Below, one piece after another: positions 6,095 to 23,124 of a stretch of DNA of 23,124 nt. Each line of letters begins with the position of its first letter. Within the stretch, counting starts at the first letter, position 1. Source of the DNA: a virus; the IMG/VR virus record IMGVR_UViG_3300006565_000054, positions 1-23,124 of that record; one strand, 5' to 3'. The translations under genes were made by a program, and so were the position numbers. The notes beneath the pieces are model-generated. The model was not told the origin of the DNA, made no database searches, and saw only the letters and a list, made by a program, of their open reading frames with translations.

Positions 6095-6100
6095 TAATTA

Positions 6101-6106
6101 CTCCTT
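6101..6106 (-). promoter_or_regulatory. Shine-Dalgarno AAGGAG overlapping the upstream stop
   Basis: AAGGAG on the minus strand is 6 nt before the ATG of the 913-aa gene and shares bases with the TAA (6107-6105) of the 641-aa gene. This implies coupled translation, and it is the clearest ribosome binding site in the window. Confidence 0.8.
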
Positions 6107-8030: not shown

Positions 8031-8047
8031 TTATAATAATTTTTAGT

Positions 8048-8055
8048 TATTTATT
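8048..8055 (-). promoter_or_regulatory. Late promoter-like AATAAATA before the 641-aa gene
   Basis: Minus strand AATAAATA differs from T4 TATAAATA only at the first base and overlaps the stop codon of the 1882-aa gene (TAA at 8056-8054). It lies 17 nt upstream of the ATG at 8030. With the motif centred near -10 the leader would be only about 10 nt. Confidence 0.5.
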
Positions 8056-11000
8056 AGGATAGAGCATCAACCTTGGCTGATAGTTCTTTGATTGCCTCAA
8101 TCAAAACTGGAATTAGTTTTTGATATGAAACTGATTTATGACCATCTTCATTAGTTCTAACTAAACCAGGAAGACCAAGTGCTTCAACTTCTTGTGCAAT
8201 TACACCAGTATCTTGTGTACCTGCTAGAGTTTGATCTCTAAATTCCTTCCAAGTAAATGTATTACCACTAATTGATATTACTTTATCTAAGGCATTAGAT
8301 ATAGGAGTAACACTATCTTTTAATGTACTATCAGATGGAGAGAAGTACGCAGTAATATCACCAGTACAACTAAGATCACCCGTAATACCAACTCCATTAT
8401 TAGAAGTTTGTAATTTAGTTGCTCCATTATACATCAACTGTATTGAGTTTGCACCTAAAGTGTTTACTGCTCTTAATGCAACATTAGAACCAGTATAAAT
8501 TTCAACATGCTCACTGGCATCAGTACCACCTTGAATCTTAAGAATACCATTATCATTTTTGATAATTGAGTCGGTCCCGTCATGGAAGATTTCCATATCC
8601 AACCCAGTCCCGAAGTAGGCTTTCTTACCATCAGGTAGTTTTATATCACCAAAGGTTGATGTTCCTGTGATTGATAAATCTCCACCAAGAGAGGTATCAC
8701 CACCAATAGATACACCACCCATAACAGTAAATGCTGTTGCAGATGTTGAGAATATCTTAGTATCTCCACAAACATTCAATCTCTTACCAATTCCAACTCC
8801 ACCTTTAACAGTGAAAGCACCTTGTAAAGTTTGAGAACCAGTAGTACAAACAGTAGTAGAAGGATCAGAATCTGTAGAATCATTAATAAAGGTTTTAGCA
8901 TCAACGGTGAAGTCCTTAGTAATAGTAACAGTTTCATTAAATCTAACCTTACCATTAAATGTAACAGGACCATCAAACTGAGATAGAATCTGTTTGGATG
9001 ATCCACCCTCAACAAGTAATCTCTGTTTAATAATTACTTCATCAAATACAACACTCAATTGACTTGGATCTTCACCCGTTACAGTTGGAACTGGAATATC
9101 AAATGTTATCTGTTCACCAGAGTCAGATGAAATCTTAGTGTTTCCAATATAGAAATCACCCTTATCATTCATACCTGTGTAAACAACAGTACCACAAGAT
9201 GTTTCTTGTGATTGTGATAAGAACTCTTCCCTTTCAGTAGGTGTCTTTAATTGAACCTGTGGAAGAGCAGTTGAATAGTTACCTGGACCATAACCAAGAT
9301 ATTCAAACGTATGACCAGATGCACGAAGTATAGAAGGTCTTCTTAATTCAATAGGTATTGGTTTAATCTTCTTAATCTGAGAGTTAATAACATGATTATC
9401 AACAATAGTACCTAATGCACCACGAAGAACTGTTATTTTACCAGATGAGAGTGTACTCTTAACAACTCTCATTATCTCTCCATCAATTTGAATGTAAGAA
9501 CCTAAAGGTAATCTACTTTCTATTGACTCTTGAGTGGTTGTTCCATCAGATAATTTAATTGTAAACTTATCGCTTGTTGCACTATTAATCTCTTCACCAA
9601 GTATTAAATTCTCATGCTCAAAGAATGATAATCCTCTTGTACCTAAATTCTCACCAGCCTTATCAGATCCTGCATTATTAGAAGACATTCCATGCTTAAG
9701 AATGTAAGTAGGATTTACTAAATTAGTAGTAGATCCAATATCTACTTTGAAAGAAGTAACATCAATAACTTCAGAAACTATAAAATCACCAAGATTGTTA
9801 TCATTATTATCAAGAACTCTGAACGAATTACCCTCTAATAAACCATGAGCAGCAGTACATGTAACTGTACTTATTGTAATATCATCAGGGTTTGGACTTG
9901 GTAAAGCAGCAGATGAAACTGCTACCCAAGGACCTAAATCAATTACTTGTTGACCATCAAGAATCCTATCTGTAAGAGGTTTCTTAATTGCAATAGATTT
10001 TGTAGAAGAAACAGCATTTATTCTATAGTAAGCATCAGTTCCTGTGCTTATACCTGTTACTTGAACATAATTACCTGTTGCAGTTGTTATACCAGCCTCT
10101 ACAAAAGCAACATTTGAACTTGGAGCTCCACCAATACCACCAGCAGATGGTAATGAACTATCAAAGTATAATGGACTTAAACTTGAACTATAAGCAGAAC
10201 CAGATTGTTCGATTTCATATTCAGTAACTGCTCCACCACTAACAACAACTTTAGCAGTAGCACCTTTCCATACAGCAGAAGCTGGTGCAGATGCATCATC
10301 AAATAATTTTATATTATGATATGTACCATCAGTATGACCTGATCCACCTGTTAATGTTCCACCATAATTCAAACCTTGAAGATCATGCTCCTTATCTAAA
10401 TTCAATATAGGAGAAGTTCCATCGTTATTAGTAACATTAGCAATACTATTACTAATACCAAAATTTAATAGTGCTTTATTAGCAGTTTCTCTGGTAATAC
10501 TCTTCTTAAGATCATTAGTTACAACATCACCAAGAGGGAATCTTTTTGCATAACTTGTTGCTTCCTGTGGATTATCTTCAACATTATCTCGATCTAATTC
10601 TGGATAGAGATTAACAACATTCTGATTATATCTCGAATCAGTAAATTGTTTTTCAAGTTTGTTTCCACCATTTAAAACATATAGATGATAAACACCATCC
10701 TGAGATCCTTCAACATATTTGTTTATAGTTTCAGATCTATAGATGAATAGGTTTTGATCATTATTGTTTCTTTGGAATCTTGGTAAAGAAAGTGATCTTG
10801 TATGAACGTCATTATTCCAAGTTCCTACATTATGAACTACGTCTAAAATATCAGTTGTCTTATATGTAAATGTTTTAGAATCAATAACACTGACTACTTT
10901 AAATGTTCCATTATATCCACGATTCTCAATACCAGTTGGATTAACAGTACAAGTTAAGTTTTTAAGAGTAACAATTTCATCAGGATTTAAATTATGATTT

Positions 11001-13702
11001 TTATCAGATCTAATAGTAACAATTTTTGTACTTACATTATAATCAAGATATGAAATAAATCTTGTATTTCTTTCAAAATCATATCCTAACGTAGCAGAAT
11101 CAGTTATTATATCATTTAATGTAAAATCAACATCATCTCGAACATTTGTATCACTGGATTCTTGTATAACAAAACTATCTTGTGGATCTCGTGCATTCTT
11201 TAATTCTTTAGGAATAACATATCTAAACTTGTATAGTTTATCATCTAAACTTCTACTATCACTCTTTCTGGTAATATAAGGTATCTCATCATTTGTATCA
11301 GATAACGTTGCTCTATTAGCATAAATCGTATTTCCAGAACCACCTTCTACATGAATAAACCAACCACCAACTTTAGTTTCACCACCAATAGTATATGTTG
11401 AGGTATCAAACTGCATTGGATGACCAATTTCACCAGGATCCTTATCGGATACTCTACTAATAACATGCAAAATACCAGCGTCAGGACTTGATATAGTGTT
11501 AATATATGCAGGTGTTGTTCTTTCTGCATTAGTCTTAGATGCTGCAATCTGTATTTCAAGACTGTTTAACTGAATACCATCTTGTCTTGTACTATTCTTA
11601 CCATCAGTAATTGCATAGTATATCTTATGAGGATCTAATCCTTCAGGAAGATCTGCATTATCTTTAAAAATTCTTATAGACTCACCATTACTTAACTCAT
11701 GTCCACCAGCAATTGTTATCTTATGAATTGCATTGGAAGAATTGTTAGTAGTATCATTATGAATTGCTTCATATGCTTTTTCTGAAGTAAATGAAGTACC
11801 TGTTGGATTATCACCAGCATCACGAGTAGAACATACAATCTTTGCTTCCCAAGTACTGCCACCCTTCTCAATGTATAATTTTTCATTAACCTTTGCACCA
11901 ATTCTAAATCCTTGAGCAATCTCTGAAGGTAGAACTGATTTATTATCTTGCCCTAATAAGTATATTCTTTCATCATCAGCAGCAGCAACAATCCTTGCTT
12001 TATCTAACTGAGGTAAATCTACTCTGGTATCTGCAGAAACAACTGCTTTTGGTGTAATAACTGAAGTAATAAATCCTTTATTATCCTTATCAAATGATTC
12101 CTTCTTAAATCCATCAGCAGCAAGAGCAAACTGACCAAAGTTAGAGTTGGAGTTTGTAATTGATGCGTCAGCACCAGACTTCATTAAGAAGTGAATATGA
12201 TAACCAATAGCGAACACAGAAACAATCTGTAGAACAGCATCATTTTCTATCGTAATATGTGAAGTTTTCCATCCATTTCTATAAACAGCATCCTTATCTA
12301 AGTGATATACTTTTGAAGGATTTGGTGATGATGATTTAGATGATAAAGTTTCACCAGTTTGCTTAGTATAATCTATAACATCAAAATCCCTACTTCTAGA
12401 ATTATACCTTGTAAATGCTCTATCATCTTTCTGTAGAGATACACCAGTAAACTGAGCAACAACCATTGAACGGAATCCAGTTGCCTTAGATCCGTCTGCC
12501 TTCATACCCTGCATACCATAAACTGATCTCAATGAACAGTTAAAGATATAAGGAGATGCACCAGTAACAGTATCAACTTCAACACTTACTGTTGCATTAC
12601 CAACACTTAATCCACCTGCAACTCCAGCAGGTAAAAATGGATCTACTTGTGGTAATAGATATGTGAATTGAGTATCACTTAAAACACTCTGAACCTTTGT
12701 AGAAATATTATAATCTGGTACATTAACCTTTTCAATTTTAATTGGAGTTCCACCAGTTAATTCATGAGGAATAGCAGTAGTTACAGTAACAACTGGACCA
12801 GGAGTTGCACCATCACCAGATCTAAGTGCTGTAATTTGAATTCTATCAGATGAGAAAGCACCTACAATTTCATACTCAGGTCTTTGTTTCGCAAAAGATT
12901 TTGCATCAGAAGGGAATTTTTGATCAATATCTCTACTTGAAGCCCTATTATATGCATTAGATAGTTTACTATAATAAACATCTAAATCAGTTAATCCACC
13001 AAAAGAATCTAACTTATTAATACCATCAGCATATTCAAATACAGTTAGTTTATGGTGAGAGAATACTGGTTTTGATCTATTAGTAAGGTCAAAATTAGTT
13101 GGGTCAGTATATACTAAAGTATTCTCGTCTCCATCAAAAATAGTAAATTGCCAGAAATAACAAGCACCAGTAACCCTAAAGAGTGCAGATCCCTTTACAT
13201 TCTCATCAGTAGGATTAGGAACATACTTAGGTCTTATCTTCGTCTTTCTTAAATCTAATCCAACAACAGAAGTTCCTCTTGGAATTATAACACCACCTTC
13301 TGTACTATTAAACTTATAAAGTATATTATCTTCTTGTGTTAAATCAAAGTTTGAATTAAGAGTTAAAGTAAGTGTATTCTGTGCTCCACTCTCTGATCCA
13401 TTTGGACTTATTGCCTTTGCAACACCTGATTCATTTTTAATACCAAATCCTGGTCTATTATCTACAAGGTGTTCACCAGGAAATAATAATATAGTTGTCT
13501 TCTCTACTATATCATTATCATTACCTCTTAAATATGAAAATCTTGCCGATTCTAAGAGTGCTCTTTGAATCGTTTTAAAAGGTTTTGTTAATGAGTTACC
13601 CTGATTTTCAATTCCATCAGTGGCATCAAGATCATTTGGATTTACATAAAGAATGCGACCTTCACTATTCTTTATAAAATTCTCTAACTTATTAAGAGGC
13701 AT
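8054..13702 (-). CDS. Giant tail fibre/spike protein with C-terminal S74 (endosialidase-type) chaperone domain (1882 aa)
   Basis: This is the largest gene in the window. The N-terminal module (residues 18-80, YVNPNDLDATDG...KPFKTIQRAL...LLFPGEHLVD) and the 380-540 region (IFNCSLRSVYGMQG; SVFAIGYHIHF; SITNSNSNFGQFAL) look like a pectate-lyase-type beta-helix module. Residues about 1466-1525 carry HTFEYLGYGPGN and KGDFYIGN. GGVGIGKRLNVCGDTKI at about 1633-1649 is a fibre repeat. The last 93 residues are a peptidase S74 intramolecular chaperone domain. It has the S-D-x-x-L-K cleavage motif SDSTLKD at 1790-1796, TGVIAQEVEALGL, and a final helix KLIPVLIEAIKELSAKV that would drive trimerisation. 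In that family the domain folds the trimer and then cleaves itself off just before the Ser, which predicts a mature 1789-aa fibre. The preceding gap has a CTAAATA motif on the upstream stop. Confidence 0.88.
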   Translation of the reverse strand: MPLNKLENFIKNSEGRILYVNPNDLDATDGIENQGNSLTKPFKTIQRALLESARFSYLRGNDNDIVEKTTILLFPGEHLVDNRPGFGIKNESGVAKAISPNGSESGAQNTLTLTLNSNFDLTQEDNILYKFNSTEGGVIIPRGTSVVGLDLRKTKIRPKYVPNPTDENVKGSALFRVTGACYFWQFTIFDGDENTLVYTDPTNFDLTNRSKPVFSHHKLTVFEYADGINKLDSFGGLTDLDVYYSKLSNAYNRASSRDIDQKFPSDAKSFAKQRPEYEIVGAFSSDRIQITALRSGDGATPGPVVTVTTAIPHELTGGTPIKIEKVNVPDYNISTKVQSVLSDTQFTYLLPQVDPFLPAGVAGGLSVGNATVSVEVDTVTGASPYIFNCSLRSVYGMQGMKADGSKATGFRSMVVAQFTGVSLQKDDRAFTRYNSRSRDFDVIDYTKQTGETLSSKSSSPNPSKVYHLDKDAVYRNGWKTSHITIENDAVLQIVSVFAIGYHIHFLMKSGADASITNSNSNFGQFALAADGFKKESFDKDNKGFITSVITPKAVVSADTRVDLPQLDKARIVAAADDERIYLLGQDNKSVLPSEIAQGFRIGAKVNEKLYIEKGGSTWEAKIVCSTRDAGDNPTGTSFTSEKAYEAIHNDTTNNSSNAIHKITIAGGHELSNGESIRIFKDNADLPEGLDPHKIYYAITDGKNSTRQDGIQLNSLEIQIAASKTNAERTTPAYINTISSPDAGILHVISRVSDKDPGEIGHPMQFDTSTYTIGGETKVGGWFIHVEGGSGNTIYANRATLSDTNDEIPYITRKSDSRSLDDKLYKFRYVIPKELKNARDPQDSFVIQESSDTNVRDDVDFTLNDIITDSATLGYDFERNTRFISYLDYNVSTKIVTIRSDKNHNLNPDEIVTLKNLTCTVNPTGIENRGYNGTFKVVSVIDSKTFTYKTTDILDVVHNVGTWNNDVHTRSLSLPRFQRNNNDQNLFIYRSETINKYVEGSQDGVYHLYVLNGGNKLEKQFTDSRYNQNVVNLYPELDRDNVEDNPQEATSYAKRFPLGDVVTNDLKKSITRETANKALLNFGISNSIANVTNNDGTSPILNLDKEHDLQGLNYGGTLTGGSGHTDGTYHNIKLFDDASAPASAVWKGATAKVVVSGGAVTEYEIEQSGSAYSSSLSPLYFDSSLPSAGGIGGAPSSNVAFVEAGITTATGNYVQVTGISTGTDAYYRINAVSSTKSIAIKKPLTDRILDGQQVIDLGPWVAVSSAALPSPNPDDITISTVTCTAAHGLLEGNSFRVLDNNDNNLGDFIVSEVIDVTSFKVDIGSTTNLVNPTYILKHGMSSNNAGSDKAGENLGTRGLSFFEHENLILGEEINSATSDKFTIKLSDGTTTQESIESRLPLGSYIQIDGEIMRVVKSTLSSGKITVLRGALGTIVDNHVINSQIKKIKPIPIELRRPSILRASGHTFEYLGYGPGNYSTALPQVQLKTPTEREEFLSQSQETSCGTVVYTGMNDKGDFYIGNTKISSDSGEQITFDIPVPTVTGEDPSQLSVVFDEVIIKQRLLVEGGSSKQILSQFDGPVTFNGKVRFNETVTITKDFTVDAKTFINDSTDSDPSTTVCTTGSQTLQGAFTVKGGVGIGKRLNVCGDTKIFSTSATAFTVMGGVSIGGDTSLGGDLSITGTSTFGDIKLPDGKKAYFGTGLDMEIFHDGTDSIIKNDNGILKIQGGTDASEHVEIYTGSNVALRAVNTLGANSIQLMYNGATKLQTSNNGVGITGDLSCTGDITAYFSPSDSTLKDSVTPISNALDKVISISGNTFTWKEFRDQTLAGTQDTGVIAQEVEALGLPGLVRTNEDGHKSVSYQKLIPVLIEAIKELSAKVDALS

Positions 13703-13738
13703 CTTCTTATACTACTGTCCAGGTGGTATTTCTATACT

Positions 13739-13945
13739 TTATTTAGCTTTGTTAGTTACAGGATCAATATAGGTAATAATTTCTGGATCTGCAGTATCTT
13801 TTATAACTTCCATAACAGACATAAATTGATCAATATTATCACACTCAACCACTTTCTGATCACCCAGATCACTAAAAAGTATAATAGTTCTTTTACATAT
13901 ATTAATTAATATACTTTCTACAGATTCATTCGGATCATTATCCAT
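13739..13945 (-). CDS. Small acidic hypothetical protein (68 aa)
   Basis: The ORF lies alone between the oxygenase and the giant fibre gene, with 47 nt upstream and 36 nt downstream. It is acidic at the N-terminus (MDNDPNESVESIL), with an alternating hydrophobic core (CKRTIILFSDLGD) and a helix-like segment (IDQFMSVMEVIKD). There is no signal peptide, membrane segment or recognised domain. No convincing Shine-Dalgarno precedes ATG 13945. The family is unknown; a small virion-assembly or accessory factor is a guess from position only. Confidence 0.6.
   Translation of the reverse strand: MDNDPNESVESILINICKRTIILFSDLGDQKVVECDNIDQFMSVMEVIKDTADPEIITYIDPVTNKAK
13740..13746 (-). promoter_or_regulatory. 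CTAAATA late-type motif before the giant fibre gene
   Basis: Minus strand CTAAATA matches the last six bases of TATAAATA and contains the TAA stop of the 68-aa gene. It lies 37 nt upstream of the ATG at 13702, a sensible distance for a late promoter. The call depends on the same arrangement recurring elsewhere in the window. Confidence 0.4.
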
Positions 13946-13992
13946 TTAACTATACCAATTTTTTAATATGATACCACAAAAATTAAATCTCG

Positions 13993-14592
13993 TCAAGATA
14001 ATGTTACATAATACCATGTAACTGCTACTCTTTTCTTACCCTTAGTTACAGATTGACCCGAATGTGGATAACACCAATTAGAAGGAAAAATTAAACCATA
14101 CCCTGCCTTTGGTTTAAAAGTTGCATGTGGAAATTCTGTTCCACCTCCCTCAAATCCATTAGACAAATAAACAATCACAGATATTTTTCTTTCATATTCA
14201 GGTAATTGTGGTCTTTGAGCAGCATCGTGATGAAATTTATACTCTTGTCCACCACTATATTCAAGTATCTGTATACTTTCTCTCCAAGATTTTGTGCCTC
14301 TACCACCAGGAACAGGATAATATGTAAAATTCTGACATAATTTTGATACTTTAAATTTATAATCAACTAAAGCAGAATTGATTCTATCATGTAAAAGATT
14401 AGTCGCTTCATCACCATCAACTAATGATGTTGAAACACTTGATCTTATAGTAGTATCAACTTTAGCTTTATTTTTTATATTTCCACTAAAAACAGTCGCT
14501 TTTTTAAATTCACATGTTTCGTCTATATGCTTATTAATTATTTTTAAATCTTCATCACTAAGAATTTTAATAATTTGTATTAAATCATTCAT
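13993..14592 (-). CDS. 2OG-Fe(II) oxygenase, prolyl 4-hydroxylase type
   Basis: From the ATG at 14592 the protein is 199 aa. The double-stranded beta-helix core is complete. The iron ligands are H121-x-D123 in FHHDAAQ and distal H177 in YPHSGQ. R188 (or K187), 10-11 residues further in KGKKRVAVTWYY, would bind the 2-oxoglutarate carboxylate. Family-typical VIVYLSNGFEGGGTEF (139-154) and GYGLIFPSN (164-172) are present. Such enzymes use O2 and 2-oxoglutarate to hydroxylate substrates, in this subfamily often proline in peptides. Two collagen-like Gly-Pro-Pro genes lie just upstream in the same cluster, so phage fibres are the obvious candidate substrate; this is inference. A TTG at 14604 could add four residues (MAFV). 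Upstream are an extended -10 (TGTTATAAT) and a CATAAATG motif. No strong Shine-Dalgarno is seen. Confidence 0.9.
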   Translation of the reverse strand: MNDLIQIIKILSDEDLKIINKHIDETCEFKKATVFSGNIKNKAKVDTTIRSSVSTSLVDGDEATNLLHDRINSALVDYKFKVSKLCQNFTYYPVPGGRGTKSWRESIQILEYSGGQEYKFHHDAAQRPQLPEYERKISVIVYLSNGFEGGGTEFPHATFKPKAGYGLIFPSNWCYPHSGQSVTKGKKRVAVTWYYVTLS

Positions 14593-14610
14593 TACAAATG
14601 CCAAATATTA

Positions 14611-14624
14611 ATAATAATTATTAT
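14611..14624. promoter_or_regulatory. 14-nt palindrome beside an extended -10 upstream of the oxygenase
   Basis: ATAATAATTATTAT is a perfect inverted repeat. Overlapping it on the minus strand is TGTTATAAT (14628-14620), an extended -10 box, about 28 nt before the oxygenase ATG. No -35 match was found at 17 nt. The palindrome could be an operator, but simple AT-richness may also explain it. Confidence 0.3.
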
Positions 14625-14628
14625 AACA

Positions 14629-14636
14629 CATTTATG
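14629..14636 (-). promoter_or_regulatory. CATAAATG late-type motif on the stop of the 139-aa gene
   Basis: Minus strand CATAAATG is one base from CATAAATA, the motif seen at 16939-16946. It contains the TAA stop of the upstream gene. It would place the oxygenase start about 37 nt downstream. Confidence 0.35.
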
Positions 14637-15051
14637 ATGGTTTTGTTGGCCAAGATGAATGTGATGCTTTATATGCGATATCCTTTACATTACTATCAGT
14701 AACATTTGCTGGCAAATCTCTTAATTCCTGTCTGTATGTACTCCATTCTGCTTTCTTAGTAGAATCTAATGGGGAATCAGGATATTGAGTCCAATCTGAA
14801 GCAGATAATTTTTTATTTCTTTTCATTCTAAGTTGTTTATAATGGTCACTTGTAGTACGTAAATCTACTGGTTGTGGAACTACAATTGTTGATTCAAAAT
14901 AAGATTGCCCAACACCAACACCATCTGCAATTCCAGTTGCTGCTAAAGCAACCTGAACAGATCCAGTAGGAGGTGTCCAAGTAGTTGTATTACCATCCCA
15001 TTCTATAATATTTGTTACTATATTATTTTCAATAATAGCATACCTACCCAT
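14632..15051 (-). CDS. Tail-assembly-chaperone-like / fibre-associated protein (139 aa)
   Basis: The N-terminal part (GRYAIIENNIVTNIIEWDGN) is a short beta-rich domain often seen at the start of such phage proteins. Residues about 70-115 contain YKQLRMKRNKKLSASDWTQY, PDSPL and KAEWSTYRQELRDLP. These match from memory the (R)xxRNxLLxxSDWTQxPDxPL...WxxYRQxLRDxP signature of the phage tail assembly chaperone-like family found in fibre-assembly proteins. The ATG has AGAGGT about 8 nt upstream, overlapping the stop of the 492-aa collagen-like gene. That position fits a dedicated folding or attachment partner of the collagen-like fibre. The chaperone role is inferred from the family signature and context. 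Confidence 0.75.
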   Translation of the reverse strand: MGRYAIIENNIVTNIIEWDGNTTTWTPPTGSVQVALAATGIADGVGVGQSYFESTIVVPQPVDLRTTSDHYKQLRMKRNKKLSASDWTQYPDSPLDSTKKAEWSTYRQELRDLPANVTDSNVKDIAYKASHSSWPTKPS

Positions 15052-15063
15052 TTTAATTACCTC

Positions 15064-16542
15064 TTAAAAACCAAATACCATTATACACCCATTTGATCCA
15101 GAATTACCAGAAGTATTCTGATCACAGGTTACAACACCATCTGCACCTTCTCCATAACTTCTACCACCCCAAGCAGACATTCCACCTTGAGCTCTTGCAG
15201 CATGTTCATCGACAGTAGTATTACCAGCACTTGTGGCCATATTACCATCTCCACCATTTGCACCATTCATCCCAAAACCATTACCTGCTCCACCAGTACC
15301 ACCCTCAGATACTCTAGTAGCAGGAGAGTAATCTGTTCCGCTACTTCCAGTACCACCTGCACCATAAAGACCAGTATTTCCAAATGTTGTTGTTCCACCA
15401 GTTCCACCAGTTCCACCAACCCATCCACCACCAGAGGAACCACCACCTCCACCAGTTCCGACAGTTACAGACATTGAAGCAGGTAAACTTGATGCAGCAT
15501 AAATCCACATACCCATACCACCAGCTCCACCACCACCAGTAGCACCACCATCACATCCATCATCATCTTGTGCATTAGCACCACCAGATCCACCACCTCC
15601 ACCAATACAAATTACCCAAAAATGACTATATCCAGATGGTTTTGTCCAAGTTCCAGATGATTGGAATGTTTGTAAATTTGCACCACCACCGCCACCACCA
15701 GCAGAACCATTCGATGCTGCTGTTATTCTACCTTGTTGGTCAACAGTTATGTTTGCATTAGTATATGAGTCAGGAGTTACAGCAGTATTATCCAGATTCA
15801 TTGTAAATTCATTCTGACTCTGAACTGAATTTGTAAGAGCAGTTCCAGCATTGAATTTAATAGTATAATCAGTTGCGGATGAAGTATTTTCTGTTCCGTC
15901 TAATTTTAAATTAACATTTCCACCGCCAGCATTTTCAACAGTATATGAATAAGTTGTATCGACATTAGTACCTGGAGGACCAGGAGGACCAGGAGTTCCA
16001 GTTCCTGGAGGACCAGGAGGACCAGGATTACCAGTTCCAGGAGTACCATCCTCACCATCTTCACCTGGAGGACCAGGAGGACCACTGCCTGGAGGACCAG
16101 GAGGACCTGGTGTAGTTGAATCTTCTCCTGGAGGACCAGGATTACCAGGAGGTCCTGGAGGACCAGAATCTAATGGAGTAAACTCTAAAGCAGTTTCTCC
16201 CGAATTTACTTTAACTGTTTTACCAGATTGTCCAGAATATCCAGGAGAAGTATCAGGAGTATCTGTTAATTCTAAAAATGTTCCTGCACCACCACCAGTG
16301 CCTGGAGGACCAGGAGGACCAGGAGGTCCTGGAGTATTTCCTGGAGGACCAGGAGGACCAGGGTTACCAGTTCCTGGAGGACCAGGAGGTCCAGGAGTTG
16401 CAGGACCAGGAGGACCAGGAGGACCTTCAGGTCCATTACTTGGAACTCTATCCCAAGCATACCCATTCCACTTCCACATCACACCATTTTCGGTATGAGT
16501 CTCGTCTAGTTCAGGACTATTTGGAAAATCAAATGCTGCCAT
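15064..16542 (-). CDS. Collagen-like tail fibre with Gly-rich adhesin-like tip (492 aa)
   Basis: The domain order is clear. Residues 1-35 ([19 protein letters not shown]...[10 protein letters not shown]) form a short N-terminal module common in phage fibres. Two collagen-like segments of Gly-X-Y (39-86 and 127-192, mostly GPP) flank a known fibre linker (88-124, [20 protein letters not shown]). A beta-rich region follows (197-278). The C-terminal 210 residues are Gly-rich ([19 protein letters not shown], then GGGGGSGG loops, ending CIMVFGF), like Gly-rich receptor-binding domains of phage adhesins. ATG 16542 overlaps the previous stop as TAATG and has a purine-rich AGAGAG site. The frame also opens at 16578 (12 extra residues read over the 124-aa gene), which is less likely. 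It is predicted to form a trimeric collagen helix carrying the host-recognition tip. Confidence 0.85.
15968..16167 (-). repeat. GPP-coding tandem repeat tract (second collagen segment)
   Basis: Low-complexity DNA built of 9-nt units (plus strand GGAGGACCA and variants) encodes Gly-Pro-Pro triplets with Glu/Asp/Thr-containing interruptions. It is locally GC-rich against an AT-rich background. Confidence 0.9.
16299..16436 (-). repeat. GPP-coding tandem repeat tract (first collagen segment)
   Basis: The same 9-nt unit repeats encode residues 37-82 of the 492-aa protein. The units are near-identical to those in the neighbouring 388-aa gene, so slippage or exchange between the two genes is possible. 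Confidence 0.9.
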
Positions 16543-16916
16543 TATCCACTCTCTGGTATAACCACTATATTGTACCATTTAATAGGGTACGAACCACTAA
16601 CAGCATCTAAATTAGCAGTATGTCCATCTGCAAGCCAAAATTCATCTACAAAAGTTCCACCATTAGTTGCTACAGCTCTGGTCATTTGACCAGAACTTGT
16701 AATATGTTTACCAAAACCTACAAATCTATCATTAGTTCCACTAGTTTCTTCAAACATATAACCAGATCCAGCTGATCCAAATCTCAATTTAATACCAACA
16801 GTCGATGCTTGAGAATTATCTGCTGCAAGAGCAATACCAATAATCACACGAACATTCTCACCAGTGCTATTGGTATAACTCCAATTACCCGATCCTGAAT
16901 ATACTGTTGCTGCCAT
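16542..16916 (-). CDS. Small beta-rich virion-associated protein (124 aa)
   Basis: The protein is rich in Gly, Ser, Thr and aromatic residues, with alternating beta-strand patterns (NVRVIIGIALAADN; VGIKLRFGSAGSGYMF; DEFWLADGHTANL; YPIKWYNIVVIPESG). It has no signal peptide or membrane segment. It lies between two collagen-like fibre genes. It starts 25 nt after the first, behind a CATAAATA motif and an AGGAAA site 10 nt upstream, and ends with a TAATG overlap into the second. I do not recognise the family. The composition would suit a globular knob domain or cap of a fibre; this is an inference. Confidence 0.7.
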   Translation of the reverse strand: MAATVYSGSGNWSYTNSTGENVRVIIGIALAADNSQASTVGIKLRFGSAGSGYMFEETSGTNDRFVGFGKHITSSGQMTRAVATNGGTFVDEFWLADGHTANLDAVSGSYPIKWYNIVVIPESG

Positions 16917-16938
16917 AATCTTTTAATTTCCTGTTTAC

Positions 16939-16946
16939 TATTTATG
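16939..16946 (-). promoter_or_regulatory. Late promoter-like CATAAATA before the 124-aa gene
   Basis: Minus strand CATAAATA matches 7 of 8 bases of the T4 late promoter and contains the TAA stop of the 388-aa gene. It lies 22 nt before the ATG at 16916, with AGGAAA in between. This spacing makes it the best late-promoter candidate in the window. Confidence 0.55.
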
Positions 16947-18108
16947 GCAATCCCATTGGAATATGCCATTGACTTTCAAATGGACCAGCACCACTACCAG
17001 CAGCAGAACCTGGAGGACCAGGAGATCCAGCAGGACCTTGTGCTACTGCTACCCATTGATCACTATTACCATCATTATAATACACATATAATGCTCCAGT
17101 GTCACTTTCCCACCACAAATCACCCTCTGAAGGTGCAGGAGAAGTTGGTGGAGTTTCACTGATTTGTAGTCCAGCAATACCTGCAGGACCAGGAGGTCCA
17201 GGAGTACCTGGAGTACCAGGAGTTCCATCATCTCCATCAGGACCTGGAGGTCCAGGAGAGGGAGGACCAGGAGGACCTGGGTTTCCTGGAGGACCAGGAG
17301 GACCACCAGCAGGACCAGGAGGTCCAGGATTACCATCTTCACCTGGAGGTCCAGGAGTTCCAGGAGTTCCAGGAGTACCTGGACTTCCAGTTCCTGGAGG
17401 ACCAGGATTACCAGGAGTTCCATCATCTCCATCGGGACCTGGAGGTCCAGGAGGTCCAGGAGGACCACCTGGAGGACCAGGAGGACCAGGAGGACCATCT
17501 TCACCTGGACTTCCATCACCACCACCAGAACCTGGAGGTCCAGGAGGTCCAGGAGGACCACCACCTGGTCCAGGAGAACCTGGAGGACCTGGAGGACCAA
17601 CTCCACCACCAGCAATTACTGTTACCCATTGACTACTATCACCATCATCATAGTAAATACACAAATCACCATGATCATTTTCCCACCACAATTCACCATG
17701 ATTTGGATCTAATGGAGGATCTTCTCCTATAGTAACAGGAATAACTGTTACAGTTGCAGCAATACCTGGATGACCAGAAGGATGTTGAACATCTACTTGA
17801 GCCGTTACTGCTGCACCTACAAAATTAAGTTGGGTTATACTACTTGCAGCACTAACAAGAATACCTTCATCATATACACTAATAGCACCTGGAATTACTC
17901 CACCACCAACAGGAACCCAATATCTTTTACCCTCAAAACCAGGAACAGAAACCAACTGATACTGTTGTCCAGAAGGAACAGGAGGGCTAGTTATAGGATC
18001 GGCAAGATTAGGCTCTGCCTGTTCTAATCCAAGATACCTATACCTATCGTCCTTTAATTGATCTTGGGGGGTTCGTTTAGCCCTACCGCTAATATACTTC
18101 TTAGACAT
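16942..18108 (-). CDS. Collagen-like structural protein with flanking WW/YY modules (388 aa)
   Basis: The N-terminus is basic and soluble ([20 protein letters not shown]) and is followed by a beta-rich part. Residues 138-164 ([20 protein letters not shown], then SSQWVTV) and 327-355 ([20 protein letters not shown], then SDQWVAV) are two copies of one module. Between them, residues 171-312 form a long collagen-like stretch of about 47 Gly-X-Y triplets, mostly GPP, with acidic breaks such as GDDGTPG and GEDG. A short second GPPG patch (about 358-367) and [11 protein letters not shown] close the protein. The start overlaps the end of the 345-aa gene by 8 nt. It is probably a trimeric rod attached by its N-terminus, and a candidate substrate of the downstream prolyl hydroxylase-type enzyme. 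Confidence 0.85.
17180..17606 (-). repeat. Long GPP-coding tandem repeat tract
   Basis: About 427 nt of 9-nt unit repeats (GGAGGACCA, GGAGGTCCA, GGAGTACCT on the plus strand) encode residues 168-310 of the 388-aa protein. Codon choice is narrow (Gly GGT/GGA, Pro CCT/CCA). Locally the tract is the most GC-rich part of the window. Confidence 0.9.
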
Positions 18109-19138
18109 TACTGTTTTCTAAGACACTCGCAGTTAATTCCATTTCCAAAGGAGCAACAAATCCACCAGCACGACTCTGACCAACATTAACCCTTATACTA
18201 CTATTAGTAGCAACAACGGCAATTGTTAATTCATTAGTAGATGTTGATGATGATCCAGCAGGATCAGTATCTCGTGGATAAGAATGTTCCGTATAATAAT
18301 CATCCATAGAGCATCTAAAGAATACTGAATTATCCACTATCTTAATTTTATCACCATTAGATAAACTATTAGCACCTATAGTCAATACCAATTCTCCAGG
18401 TGCTAAAGTAATACCCTCCATAGTTTTTGCAATATTATCTCCATTATACAATGCATGAGTAACATTAAATTTAGACCCAGAAGAACCACCACTTATAACT
18501 TCAACTGCTTCAAAATTTGCTCTTGAGAATCTATGTAAAGCAGAATTATAAGTATGAGGATTACCACTTGCTCCTCCAACAGTCATTGAAAATGTTCTTG
18601 ATATACCAACATTATCAACTATACTATCAACAGTATAAGATTGTTGAGGGTCTGGAAAAACATTAGTTGTAATTCCAGAATATGATGAGCAAGTAAAATA
18701 CAATCCACCTAAAGTAACTTCATTTCCAGCAATAAATCCATGATTTTCTTTACACATTACAGTAGCAATTCCTGTTGGTTCATCATAATCAACACCAGTA
18801 ACTATACCAACATTCTGTTGAGTACCTTTAATATAAACCCTATCAAGAACTATAGGAGTTTTTTCTAAAACTATTCTACCATCTACTAATATTAAAGCAT
18901 CATTAGGTGGTATTTCTGCATCTTGTATAATTCTTACATCTCTTGTATTACCAGTACTTCTTGATTCCCTTCTTTGAAAAAATGTAACTTTTGGATAAGT
19001 TATACCAACACCAACATTTGCAACTTGAGCATATAACAACAAAGATGTACTACCAGTTGGAACCTCATATATTTTTTGCAATCCAGGAGAAACTGGAACA
19101 GCAATATTAATAAACTTATTTACGGGTGCTATTGCCAT
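18101..19138 (-). CDS. Cyanophage-type virion structural protein (345 aa)
   Basis: This is a beta-rich protein without membrane segments. The N-terminal domain ([21 protein letters not shown]) and strands up to about residue 110 resemble a baseplate/fibre connector. Residues 115-190 hold a module also common in these phages ([21 protein letters not shown]). Near the C-terminus is [20 protein letters not shown] then RDTDPAG, a motif I associate with T4-like cyanophage structural proteins. It starts one base after the 1110-aa gene stop, with GAGATAAG just upstream, and overlaps the collagen-like gene by 8 nt. It is therefore probably co-translated and part of the same fibre or baseplate assembly. 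The exact role is not known. Confidence 0.7.
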
Positions 19139-19139
19139 C

Positions 19140-22100
19140 TTATCTCAACGCTAAAATTAACGGGGTCATTTGTGCTTGTATTGCTCTATTAAAGTCTCTT
19201 CCTCTAATAGTAGAAGTTGTCTGGTCAATAGTTAGACCATCACCAATTCTAAAATTACCTTTCTGATCGGTACTTGTGAATGGGCATTGTCCACCGTTTA
19301 TAGCAACAACTTCATTCTCAGGTATTGGTTTTCCACCTTGGAAGGGGTTCGCAATATTTATATCCGTACCTGCACCAATATATTCAAAGGAATGTGAACT
19401 GGTTATAATTCTACTCAGTCTTACAAATTCCATCTTACTTGTAGACTTAACCTTATAAGGTATAAACTCATTAAAAGTTACTGTAGATAATCCAGTAACT
19501 GAAGAAACTGTGGTTGCTTCATCAATAGTATATAAAATTGGATCCATATCTGCTGTTAATTGTGCAGATCCATTTCCAGAAATATTCAAAACAACATTTT
19601 GGGTTGGTAAGAAATTCCTACCACTAGCAATAATATCAACAGAAGTAATAGTTCCAGCAGCACTTACATTAGGAGAAAACTCAGCAAAAATTGATTCTGG
19701 ACCTTCTGGAAGAGTAGCAGTAACAAGAGGAGGTGCAGATGCAGCATAATCACCAGGATTACCACCATTAACAACAGTAACACCTCTTATAAATTGTAAA
19801 GGTTTGGTAATTGATGCAGTAGATGGACTATCTGGATAATCATTCATATCTAAATGGAAATAAGCACCTTGTCCATCAAATGGAGTTCTAAATTGTCTGG
19901 GTGTATTAAAATCTCTAACTTGATTTAATACCACTATATCAGATTCACCGTTTATATCAGCATTTAAATTACCATCAAATTCAACAACACTAGTACCGTC
20001 AGAAACTAATCCATAAGTACCAAATGAAGAGTTTGAGTTTGTTAAGTCACATTGCCCACCAGATGTACAACCAATACCTATTTGATTTCCAATCGTAAAA
20101 ATAGAAACTAATTGGGCATATCCATTATTAGAAATAGAAACACCAATACCTGCTTCATTATATTGTGTAAATGAGTCACAAACCATACTCTTTAAATCTT
20201 GTCCAAGATCATTAGTTCCAGTAAATGAAGCATCAACATGATGACCATTGATCCTCATACCAATACTCTTACTCATAAAATTAGTACAGTTTCTAATATA
20301 TGGAGATCTCCATCTACCACTTGGTCCTTCATTTGCAGGACCAACATCAAGAAAACCACTTACAGCTGCAGGTGAAACTCCAGCACTAATATACGCTTGT
20401 GTTGGTGGGAAAGCAACTGCAGCACAATCCGTATTATCTTGTGATACTGATGTACCAGAGAAATTTAGATTTTCAATCAAACATCCTCTTCTAACATGGA
20501 ATACATCCCAATTAGGATTATTAGGTATAATTGTTACAAGTCTAATATCTTCTCCCTTTACAGTAACATCTGTTCTTAATCCAATCGGATTATCTTCATA
20601 ATATACACCAGAACGAACTTTAATTGTATCTCCTGGTTGTGCTTTTTCTGCTGCTTTACCAATAGTTCTTAAGGCATCACCCTCTAATAGCCCCTCATTA
20701 TCATCATCACCATCCAATGTAACAAAGATAATATTTTCAGTTTCAACACCAGATGGTCTCCAAGATACACCAACACCAATAGAAGTTAATCTCCAATCCT
20801 TTCTTGGATTAGACGCATCGTTAGGATCTGGTATTAAATTATTATAATCAATTAAAGAACTTTCTAATTCTAAAGTACCAATAAGTTTTGTATTCTGTCC
20901 AACATTTAAGTTCTTCTCAATTCCAACACCACCTTCAACTATTAAAGCACCAAGATCCTTAGTTGGAGATTGTGTAGTACCATGAATATGAAGATCACCA
21001 CCAATATTAACGTCTTTCTCAATACCAACACCACCATCAACTACAAGAGCACCAATGTCTTTAGTTGTGGATTGTGTTGGTGATTCAATTTTAGTATCTC
21101 CACCAACAAATAATCTCTTTGCTATTCCAACACCACCATCAATTTGAACGGAAGCAGGAGCAGTAGGACTTGTAGAATCTGTAAGATCATTAAATGTTGC
21201 TATTCCATCTACATCTAATGTATTATTAAGAGTTGTAGCACCATCTACGTCTAATGTAGAATTAAATGTAACAGCACCATCAGTATTCAATGTAGTGTCA
21301 AAATCAACAGCACCTGTTGCATGAACTGTGCCAGAAATATCTAAATCAGTACTTGGATTATCATTTTTAATACCAACCTTAGTCATCCTATAGATTGGTG
21401 CATCATTAGCAGATCCTACATGACCCCACAAATCTTGAGTTTGTATTCTTGCAATTTGTGTTGGATTTTCTGGATCAGGGATAGGAAGTACTGTATCAGT
21501 TCCTAATCCAAGACTATTAACCTGTCTAAAATTAATAGTCGAGAATAACTGAGAAGTACCATTAATAGGTAAATAAACACTCTCATCCTGTACATATATT
21601 CCATCAAGATTTACAGGAGATGCATTTACCCACCTAATTCCATTAGAATCTCGATTTAAATACCATCCATTTGCACCTGGAGAATCTGCAGAGTCAATAA
21701 TATTTTTATCAATCTTTACAGATCCTTCAATATCAAGTTTAATCGGACCTTCTTGCGAAGCATTGTATCCAGGTATATTACCAGGATTTGTACTTCCAAT
21801 ACCAACTATACCAGTATCAGTAACAACAAAAGAGTCATCCCATTTTCCAACTTGGAATCTTTGATACGGTTGAGTAGTTCCTATACCTACCGAAGATACT
21901 CCAGTTACTGGATCAGAAGCAACAATAAACGATTTTTCTCTATATCCAACTTGAAATCTTCCATCAGGTACTGTAGTTGCTATTCCGACTCTACACGGGT
22001 TAACAGTAACAGTTAAACATTCATTACCTACTTGGAATATTCCATCAGGTTGAGTAGTACCTATACCTGTAGAACCACCTTCAGTAACAACAAAAGATTT

Positions 22101-22472
22101 ATCTCCTACTTGGAATTTTGTATCTGGTTGGGTAGTACCTATACCTACTCTATTACCATATTCACCATCAGCTATCTCACCTTTTGATATAACTGTTAAT
22201 ACAGTACCACCAACACCTACATGAAGTCTGTGTCTTACTGTCAAATAATCGGTATCAATAAGATTTTCAACTCTTAAATCACCACCAATAGTAATATTCT
22301 TTTCTACGTCAAGATTTATAAATGTCCCATCACCACCTGTTCCTGTACCTCCAGAAGCAGTTCCTTCTAAATCAGCATATAATTTTCCATAAACATGAAC
22401 ATCATTATAAAATTCGGCAACATTACCTACCTTAAAATTATCCAGTCCCCCAAAATTCTCTTCCTGAGTCAT
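19140..22472 (-). CDS. Fibre/baseplate protein with VGIGTT repeats and beta-helix module (1110 aa)
   Basis: Residues 109-230 contain five copies of a V(G)IGTTQPDxxFQVG repeat. Residues 396-428 hold repeats of LDVDGATTLN type, and 446-526 hold three GGVGI(A/E)K units (GGVGIAKRLFVGGDTKI). The central part (578-670, FVTLDGDDDNEG...ALRTIGKAAEKAQPGDTIKV) resembles a pectate-lyase-like right-handed beta-helix; 725-830 (YIRNCTNFMSKSIGMRIN, SIFTIGNQIG, LTNSNSSFGTYGL) continue it. The C-terminus has HSFEYIGAGTD and KGNFRIGDGLTID. Most of these modules recur in the 1882-aa protein. No S74 chaperone is present here. The start overlaps the spike-like gene by one base (TAATG), with GGAGGA 8 nt upstream. 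A structural role in the baseplate or side fibres is likely; enzymatic activity is not supported. Confidence 0.78.
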   Translation of the reverse strand: MTQEENFGGLDNFKVGNVAEFYNDVHVYGKLYADLEGTASGGTGTGGDGTFINLDVEKNITIGGDLRVENLIDTDYLTVRHRLHVGVGGTVLTVISKGEIADGEYGNRVGIGTTQPDTKFQVGDKSFVVTEGGSTGIGTTQPDGIFQVGNECLTVTVNPCRVGIATTVPDGRFQVGYREKSFIVASDPVTGVSSVGIGTTQPYQRFQVGKWDDSFVVTDTGIVGIGSTNPGNIPGYNASQEGPIKLDIEGSVKIDKNIIDSADSPGANGWYLNRDSNGIRWVNASPVNLDGIYVQDESVYLPINGTSQLFSTINFRQVNSLGLGTDTVLPIPDPENPTQIARIQTQDLWGHVGSANDAPIYRMTKVGIKNDNPSTDLDISGTVHATGAVDFDTTLNTDGAVTFNSTLDVDGATTLNNTLDVDGIATFNDLTDSTSPTAPASVQIDGGVGIAKRLFVGGDTKIESPTQSTTKDIGALVVDGGVGIEKDVNIGGDLHIHGTTQSPTKDLGALIVEGGVGIEKNLNVGQNTKLIGTLELESSLIDYNNLIPDPNDASNPRKDWRLTSIGVGVSWRPSGVETENIIFVTLDGDDDNEGLLEGDALRTIGKAAEKAQPGDTIKVRSGVYYEDNPIGLRTDVTVKGEDIRLVTIIPNNPNWDVFHVRRGCLIENLNFSGTSVSQDNTDCAAVAFPPTQAYISAGVSPAAVSGFLDVGPANEGPSGRWRSPYIRNCTNFMSKSIGMRINGHHVDASFTGTNDLGQDLKSMVCDSFTQYNEAGIGVSISNNGYAQLVSIFTIGNQIGIGCTSGGQCDLTNSNSSFGTYGLVSDGTSVVEFDGNLNADINGESDIVVLNQVRDFNTPRQFRTPFDGQGAYFHLDMNDYPDSPSTASITKPLQFIRGVTVVNGGNPGDYAASAPPLVTATLPEGPESIFAEFSPNVSAAGTITSVDIIASGRNFLPTQNVVLNISGNGSAQLTADMDPILYTIDEATTVSSVTGLSTVTFNEFIPYKVKSTSKMEFVRLSRIITSSHSFEYIGAGTDINIANPFQGGKPIPENEVVAINGGQCPFTSTDQKGNFRIGDGLTIDQTTSTIRGRDFNRAIQAQMTPLILALR
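21783..22148 (-). repeat. Five imperfect VGIGTTQPDxxFQVG coding repeats
   Basis: Within the 1110-aa gene, units recur at residues about 109-123, 135-149, 162-176, 195-209 and 223-230 (the last truncated). On the plus strand the repeating DNA is the ATTCCATCAGG/TGGTTGAGTAGT-type phrase. The units differ from each other, so this is an old, diverged array. Confidence 0.75.
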
Positions 22473-23124
22473 TATAGAAGTCCTCCAAGTTTATCCTCAA
22501 GACTGGAAGCAGCACTCTCAATAGATGCAGCATTAATACCAGAATTTGCTGCCATTTTCTCCATACTACTTGCCATATCTTTAAATGGACTTTTAAAAGA
22601 ACCACCAGTAAATGATTTTGCAATCTCAGGTGTTCCAACCTCAGTACCACTAAAGACCAATCCACCAAAAGTTACATCACGAGGAGCAAGATTACCAGCC
22701 ATAGCAGTGGTATTTAAAACAGGTGTATCCAATTCAATTTCATTCGATGCTTTTAAAGTCATCTTTTTTCCAGCATCTATTTTAATATCTTCATCAGCAT
22801 CAATTGTAATATTTTTACCAGTTATTTTAACTTGACCATTTGCCATTGCAGTTATGGTAACATCCCCATTCTTACCAATAATATTAATACAACATTCACC
22901 ATCTTTTGCTTTAGCACCACCAACAATATCAATACACTGATCATTGTATATGTGATACAATCCACCATTAGTCATTCCAAGAGAACTAGTGTTATTATCA
23001 GCACCAGAACCAAAAAGGTCATAGACTGTAGATCCATTCAAACCCATCTGAGGATTTCCAGTATCAATCCTAAATCCAGGTCCGAAATTAACATACTCTC
23101 GGTTTTGCCAATTTTGATCTGGTC
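22472..23124 (-). CDS. Baseplate central spike-like protein, gp5-type C-terminal beta-helix (5' end outside window)
   Basis: The frame is open from the right edge to the stop at 22472, so the gene begins beyond the window and the internal ATG at 23047 need not be the start. The 25 codons before it are continuous (including FGPGFRIDTGNP). The segment GDVTITAMANGQVKITGKNI, TIDADEDIKIDAGKKM, TLKASNEIELDTP has the alternating short-strand pattern of T4 gp5/VgrG triple-stranded beta-helix spikes that puncture the outer membrane. A Cys pair (GECCINIIG) lies before it. The last 35 residues look helical (MASSMEKMAANSGINAASIE). The family assignment is by pattern only. Any lysozyme or OB domain would lie outside the window. 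Confidence 0.65.
   Translation of the reverse strand, partial: PDQNWQNREYVNFGPGFRIDTGNPQMGLNGSTVYDLFGSGADNNTSSLGMTNGGLYHIYNDQCIDIVGGAKAKDGECCINIIGKNGDVTITAMANGQVKITGKNITIDADEDIKIDAGKKMTLKASNEIELDTPVLNTTAMAGNLAPRDVTFGGLVFSGTEVGTPEIAKSFTGGSFKSPFKDMASSMEKMAANSGINAASIESAASSLEDKLGGLL
22481..22486 (-). promoter_or_regulatory. Shine-Dalgarno GGAGGA of the 1110-aa gene
   Basis: GGAGGA on the minus strand is 8 nt upstream of ATG 22472 and sits inside the last codons (LGGLL) of the spike-like gene. With the TAATG overlap, this implies coupled translation. Confidence 0.75.

Follow-up and report, generated by a model that had tools for sequence, protein, structure and literature searches.

The window analysed here is an uncultivated, metagenomic viral contig of 23,124 bases (IMG/VR record IMGVR_UViG_3300006565_000054) from a P-SSM2-like cyanomyovirus, a marine cyanobacterial virus whose closest isolates, both Prochlorococcus phages, are P-SSM2 and P-SSM5 (nucleotide identity across the fibre, 79%). 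Downstream of two collagen-like fibre proteins it encodes a 2-oxoglutarate (2OG)-Fe(II) oxygenase of the prolyl 4-hydroxylase (P4H) type, and we judge it likely, at a probability of about 0.72, that this enzyme is a phage collagen prolyl hydroxylase acting on the co-encoded fibres. This reading is carried by the genes present, the class of the enzyme, its linkage to collagens, and the match between enzyme and repeat residue. In the mechanism that we propose, the collagen-like fibre chains would be made late in infection, and the co-encoded enzyme would hydroxylate the prolines of Gly-X-Pro triplets, mainly at the Y-position of the Gly-X-Y (GXY) repeat, using Fe(II), O2, and 2OG. The site of catalysis would be the cytoplasm of the photosynthesising host, where O2 and 2OG are on hand. 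The modified chains would then trimerise into triple-helical fibre shafts of increased stability, with effects on the virion and on infection. Related phages have sister modules that would do comparable work, chief among them an LH3-like lysyl hydroxylase/glycosyltransferase encoded next to Lys-type collagens. Judging from these gene sets, some phages probably mature their fibres chemically as animals mature collagen.

Collagen-like Proteins and the Class of the Enzyme

Two Gly-Pro-Pro-rich open reading frames (ORFs) of 388 and 492 amino acids (aa) upstream of the oxygenase had been named in a preliminary description of this DNA, and both are borne out. The 388-aa ORF has 51 GXY triplets (counted in runs of at least two), including 21 GPP, and Pro occupies the Y-position in 36/51. 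When the same residues were shuffled, the mean was 11 triplets and the maximum 28, so the GXY tracts are long beyond what composition gives and the ORF is collagen-like. The 492-aa protein has the two GPP segments ascribed to it, with 20 GPP.

The oxygenase belongs with the prolyl hydroxylases. Against solved structures, phmmer placed P4Hs on top (Bacillus anthracis P4H, or Ba-P4H, at 3.6e-7, with the PBCV-1 and Chlamydomonas enzymes), and below them came just a prolyl 3-hydroxylase and unrelated matches at E >0.2. A PDB search with a profile of 29 relatives returned prolyl hydroxylases only: Ba-P4H (9e-16), Cr-P4H (5e-9), PBCV-1 vCPH (2e-8), human C-P4H-II (5e-5), and prolyl 3-hydroxylase (2e-3). 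The structures closest to the AlphaFold2 model (predicted local distance difference test score, pLDDT, 87) are a peptide-bound algal P4H, PBCV-1 vCPH, Ba-P4H, and HIF prolyl hydroxylases. Judged by the P4H residues for iron, 2OG, and peptide binding given in PMC7948501, the Fe ligands H121/D123/H177, the 2OG residues Y112/T152/K187, and the peptide-contact residues R50/E105/Y118/R135/W193 are all invariant in the 29 relatives, which gives the enzyme both the HxD...H triad of the double-stranded beta-helix fold and the residue set of a P4H. The preliminary description had read the ligands as HxD...H...R. Its iron ligands stand, but the residue for the 2OG C5-carboxylate is Lys187, ten positions after H177, as in collagen-type P4Hs; it aligns with its counterparts in Ba-P4H and Cr-P4H and is followed by Arg188, whereas HIF-type enzymes have Arg at this position. 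From class and gene linkage together, we infer that the oxygenase would hydroxylate peptidyl proline.

Linkage of the Enzyme to Collagen Genes

Linkage was assessed from three anchors, namely the oxygenase itself, isolates sharing the neighbouring fibre, and, in IMG/VR, nothing but that fibre, an anchor that favours neither enzyme nor collagen. The fibre-anchored survey yielded 80 distinct loci, 25 with enzyme and collagen, 13 with collagen only, 42 with neither, and 0 with the enzyme but no collagen (p=1.5e-11). A survey of this kind had been proposed beforehand, with an enzyme equally common without collagens as the outcome that would speak against a collagen substrate; instead, collagens accompany the enzyme at 25/25 loci and the enzyme is at 0/42 collagen-free loci. 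With the oxygenase as anchor, 41 distinct IMG/VR loci had at least 4 kb of upstream DNA; 37 have an ORF with at least 15 GXY triplets and the remaining 4 have shorter collagen segments of 7-13 triplets, for a total of 41/41. Isolates sharing the fibre have long collagens at the locus in 5/5 cases with the enzyme (counted at ≥40% identity) and in 0/14 without it. Across 17 whole isolate genomes, an orthologue (counted at >200 bits) is present in P-SSM2, S-CAM7, and ACG-2014f, all with Pfam collagen (3/3), while among the 14 genomes lacking it collagen occurs in S-CAM9 only. P-SSM2 has five collagen ORFs, and its enzyme is 59% identical to that of the window.

So strict a linkage was seen for this subfamily only. 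A rule that any 2OG oxygenase near the fibre implies collagen was rejected, as S-H35, S-SM1, and S-CAM22 have such genes without collagens; in the IMG/VR set, a 2OG gene of any type is commoner at loci with collagens (33/38) than at those without (4/42). A genome scan gave three matches only, contigs filed under a single-cell or metagenome-assembled genome, and because all three have phage gene order no cellular donor was found. In a different T4-like lineage (L213:2471-5467, L260:1-1977), the genes after Pro-rich collagens encode a DUF6445 protein and a 2OG oxygenase that is 36% identical over ~104 aa to that of the window, and pairing of enzyme and collagen may have arisen more than once.

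These counts bear on two explanations in which the collagens are not the substrate. The enzyme could be a metabolic gene that alters host 2OG/nitrogen signalling or takes part in DNA repair, as Sullivan et al. 2010 (PMC3037559) proposed for the cyanophage 2OG oxygenase superfamily, with collagen proximity incidental. Cyanophages have 1-24 2OG oxygenase genes, many of them away from fibres, but wherever a locus had enough upstream DNA, the window subfamily came with collagens, and the window gene lies within the tail-fibre cluster and keeps the P4H peptide-contact residues, which makes this explanation improbable. We regard as very improbable that the substrate is a noncollagen protein, such as EF-Tu or the conserved 1882-aa fibre, with the enzyme merely co-inherited with collagen islands. 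EF-Tu is known to be modified by P4Hs of Pseudomonas and Bacillus, the P. putida P4H:EF-Tu complex (4iw3) is among the closest folds, and by its title entry 5v7y has Ba-P4H modifying EF-Tu too. Yet the 1882-aa fibre is present in 42 collagen-free loci, all without the enzyme, and a host target would leave unexplained both the collagen linkage and the mirror pattern of the LH3-type system described below.

Match of the Enzyme to the Repeat Residue

If the enzyme is a collagen prolyl hydroxylase, the composition of the repeats is of interest. Among the 38 collagen loci, the enzyme is found at 15/16 with Y-Pro of at least 10% and at 10/22 others (p=0.002). Pooled X-Pro and Y-Pro are 36% and 26% at enzyme loci vs 2% and 4% at enzyme-less loci. 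The motif GPPG occurs at 19 loci with the enzyme and at 0/13 collagen loci without it (p=1e-5 in a post hoc test whose motif was fixed by the finding itself); because enzyme-less loci are Pro-poor in general, what correlates with the enzyme is Pro content, and avoidance of a single motif is not implied. At several K-type tracts the last residues form a short GPPGP(A/S/T) cap, and at such loci this cap may be what the enzyme acts on. A rule that the oxygenase goes with Pro-only collagens was rejected, since Y-Pro is below 10% in 10/25 enzyme loci and the oxygenase tree mixes repeat types.

An LH3-like System in Relatives

Where the enzyme is missing from a collagen locus, 2OG oxygenases of other types usually lie among the collagens, and sulfotransferases are present in a few cases. 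S-CAM9, an isolate, has a collagen fibre with Lys at Y, after which come two 2OG oxygenases and a protein with GT25 and GT_PLOD domains, and the genes overlap. The GT25 and GT_PLOD protein is also found in S-PRM1 (gp162), S-8S53/55/56, and Roseobacter phage CRP-6 (gp58); GT25 was not found in the window contig. Longer fusions in relatives of the window match human LH3 (1e-32), COLGALT1 (procollagen galactosyltransferase 1, 3e-21), and mimivirus L230 (2.8e-7). The LH3-like protein of these relatives has GT_PLOD (PF25342, 2.3e-43), and its C-terminal part aligns with LH3 547-709 as a lysyl-hydroxylase-like (LH-like) domain with invariant H561, D563, H610, and K620. The glycosyltransferase domains are of the collagen galactosyl- and glucosyltransferase kinds.

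A scan of IMG/VR for the fusion gave 427 related stretches, and loci were sampled from the best 80 of 427. All of the distinct sampled LH3-type loci with collagens (35/35) have Y-Lys of at least 10%, with a median Y-Lys of 0.37 and a median Y-Pro of 0.01. At 66 P4H-type loci the medians are 0.00 and 0.36, respectively (p=2e-8 and 1e-13, not corrected for relatedness). Of the 34 LH3-type loci that extend 4 kb or more upstream, 5 show no collagen. Enzyme type thus fits repeat residue in two unrelated systems, which is hard to explain unless the enzymes act on the fibres. We lean toward a broader reading as well, in which marine tailed-phage fibre loci would hold a modular, animal-like collagen-maturation toolkit whose enzyme co-evolves with the Y residue, pairing P4H with Gly-X-Pro, LH3-COLGALT fusions with Gly-X-Lys, and possibly glycosyl- or sulfotransferases with other repeats.

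Further modifying enzymes turned up around these islands. One cyanophage fibre island with collagens and oxygenases encodes sulfotransferases (PF03567, PF13469) and an Asp/Asn beta-hydroxylase (PF05118) (L362:6927-7481, 7995-8816). At L125:7921-8682, a putative sulfotransferase, recognized by sequence look only and without a Pfam match, lies among collagen and oxygenase genes. Fibre sulfation is possible at islands of these types. Glycosyltransferases of GT1 and GT25 type adjoin Thr-rich (GAT)n collagens in S-CAM7 (17930-19809, 168723-169460) and ACG-2014f (17328-18419), an arrangement that recalls Thr-glycosylated bacterial collagens such as BclA. In Lys-type collagen loci, a recurrent 144-169 aa protein (IAWKGF...GRKYRCLDGKHRIEAL) comes right after a second oxygenase type, ox2 (L004:9197-9631, L302:4408-4869, L349:2850-3359).

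Weighing the Proposed Collagen Prolyl Hydroxylase

Several observations count against a collagen prolyl hydroxylase, beginning with the fold. PiuC also matches the model, at Z 16.2 vs 18.0, and because it scores so close the fold alone is undecided; on enzyme class the aligned residues say more than the fold does. The P-SSM2 gene has the old annotation piuC, PiuC structures share the fold, and there is weak similarity to NCBIfam NF003974, so a PiuC/PKHD-type iron-uptake-related dioxygenase was considered. We rejected this annotation. The NF003974 score is 25 bits against a cut-off of 143, PiuC was absent from the matches of the PDB profile search at E up to 10 while prolyl hydroxylases were recovered, and the 2OG position is Lys as in collagen-type P4Hs, all of which leaves an iron-uptake role scarcely credible. 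Among the residues themselves, the lid Trp of Cr-P4H and P4H-TM (Trp279/W99) is not kept, and Ser56 takes its place in the window.

The statistics of linkage also deserve caution. Relatedness inflates the linkage p value; a fibre tree puts the changes in the two traits at 12 and 9, and 6 independent pairs gave ~2.6 concordant and 0 discordant, for which a sign test is not significant. A collagen-anchored search with a GPP DNA pattern returned 50 records, a mixture of phages and fragments, with the cassette enzyme in 13/50 and any PF13640 in 23/50. The 27/50 records without PF13640 come from other lineages, and many records are fragments. On these fractions, hydroxylation of all phage collagens is not implied.

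The match to Pro is likewise incomplete. Of the enzyme loci, 6/25 lack GPPG and some are Lys- or Gln-dominated; the same subfamily lies beside Lys- and Gln-type collagens that in some cases have few or no GXP triplets (L009, L043, L013), and the oxygenase tree is not cleanly split by repeat type. An enzyme that acts on the collagen fibres, but not mainly on Y-Pro, would account for this pattern, whether as a broad collagen hydroxylase or one directed at another residue or at the flanking fibre domains. We consider such an enzyme unlikely because the P4H-type active-site residues are invariant over P-, K-, and Q-type loci, Pro-rich collagen loci have the enzyme far more often than Pro-poor ones, and the GPPGP caps supply proline at several K-type tracts. 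The hydroxylated-collagen cassette of the preliminary description accordingly keeps the support of enzyme class, co-occurrence, Pro and GPPG enrichment, and the LH3 mirror, with the qualification that its enzyme also sits beside some Lys- and Gln-type collagens without GPPG.

Organization of the Locus

Every gene of the region is on the minus strand (Table 1). The preliminary description had correctly placed a chaperone-like protein between the collagens and the oxygenase, to which we add a 124-aa ORF between the two collagens themselves; this protein matched no family in Pfam or PHROG. The true start of the oxygenase is 14592, and the start of the 492-aa protein was picked to fit relatives (the ORF caller's version is 504 aa and starts further upstream). 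The C-terminal half of the 492-aa protein matches PHROG 863 (tail fibre assembly), and its Gly-rich C-terminal domain (15064-15950), which resembles Gly-rich phage adhesin tips, is a possible receptor-binding part.

Table 1. Genes of the fibre region of the window in transcription order, and LH3/PLOD-like proteins of related phages
Feature	Position or identifier	Strand	Remarks
1110-aa tail fibre	19140-22472	-	First in transcription order
Conserved 345-aa protein	18101-19138	-	PHROG 1276; upstream edge of island; anchors relatives
Collagen-like fibre protein, 388 aa	16942-18108	-	Pfam Collagen PF01391 5.2e-12; shuffle test
124-aa protein (MAATVYSG...)	16542-16916	-	Between the two collagen ORFs; same module between collagens in relatives
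Collagen-like fibre protein, 492 aa	15064-16542	-	20 GPP; two Pro-rich/GPP-rich segments; Gly-rich C-terminal domain
Phage tail assembly chaperone-like protein, 139 aa	14632-15051	-	PF16778 Phage_tail_APC 7.1e-19; PHROG tail fibre assembly
Prolyl-4-hydroxylase-type 2OG-Fe(II) oxygenase, 199 aa	13993-14592	-	PF13640 56.7 bits; H121/D123/H177, Lys187
Small protein DUF7294 / PHROG 662	13739-13945	-	Downstream edge of island; syntenic in P-SSM2
Conserved 1882-aa tail fibre	8054-13702	-	Neutral survey anchor; homologues with and without cassette
S-CAM9 LH3/PLOD-like protein	N161109_031		GT25 + GT_PLOD, 613 aa
LH3/PLOD-like fusion, 635 aa	L349:7707-9614; L346:6283-8190		C-terminal lysyl-hydroxylase-like domain; relatives of the window

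A sibling contig that is 99% identical has window positions 3996-17515 at one place and 17387-23124 ~24.5 kb away. Because the two matches overlap (17387-17515) within the collagen repeat of the 388-aa ORF, this ORF may be a repeat-mediated join, made by assembly or by recombination. Given the distance between the flanks in the sibling, the segment marks a hypervariable island or a repeat-collapsed assembly. The conclusion that collagens lie beside the oxygenase is untouched, since both halves of the ORF sit in collagen ORFs in the sibling and the sibling island has more collagens.

Relation to Known Systems and Significance

Animals, giant viruses, and Bacillus are known to hydroxylate collagen. 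The substrates studied for PBCV-1 vCPH are peptides of poly-proline and (PAPK)n type rather than a tail-fibre collagen encoded nearby. This enzyme (PDB 5c5t), likewise a P4H encoded by a virus, shares its fold (Foldseek rank 2) and catalytic residues with that of the window but comes from a eukaryotic algal virus. Ba-P4H (3itq, 5hv0) is bacterial and the best PDB sequence match, and it hydroxylates (PPG)n with the Y-position preferred (review PMC8968730); it differs in being a cellular gene outside any phage fibre island, with ~20% identity to the window enzyme in structural alignment. Mimivirus L230, itself viral, and human LH3 (PLOD3) and COLGALT1 modify collagen, as would the tri-domain protein of related phages. 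They belong to a giant virus or an animal and act on Lys, whereas the window enzyme is of P4H type, and the phage version fuses GT25, GT_PLOD, and LH-like domains in one 590-640 aa chain. Other cyanophage 2OG-Fe(II) oxygenases (PiuC/ferrochelatase annotations, PHROG 61) share superfamily and hosts with the window enzyme, but they adjoin helicase, ssb, or tRNA genes, and strict collagen tracking was seen for the window subfamily only.

We found no report in the open-access literature linking phage or cyanophage collagens to a prolyl or lysyl hydroxylase. One review describes phage collagens as short and brings up hydroxylation only in connection with giant viruses and Bacillus (PMC8968730). The functions of cyanophage 2OG oxygenases were said in 2022 to be not specifically investigated (PMC9602691), and another study, in which viral P4HA ranks with the most abundant auxiliary genes, says that its use "remains cryptic" (PMC9301287). 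About two decades after cyanophage 2OG-Fe(II) oxygenases became known, they still have no known substrate, and the standing proposal is a role in 2OG/nitrogen metabolism or DNA repair (PMC3037559). Put forward here is a specific, testable substrate for one subfamily, the adjacent collagen-like tail fibres, together with a matching system for Lys built on LH3-like enzymes. If the oxygenase does hydroxylate these collagens, bacterial production of modified collagen would gain compact, single-chain enzymes. For the phages, fibre assembly would depend on O2, Fe, and 2OG, and host recognition would gain added chemistry. Should the toolkit extend across marine tailed phages, phage adhesins with post-translational modifications would be commonplace in the ocean.

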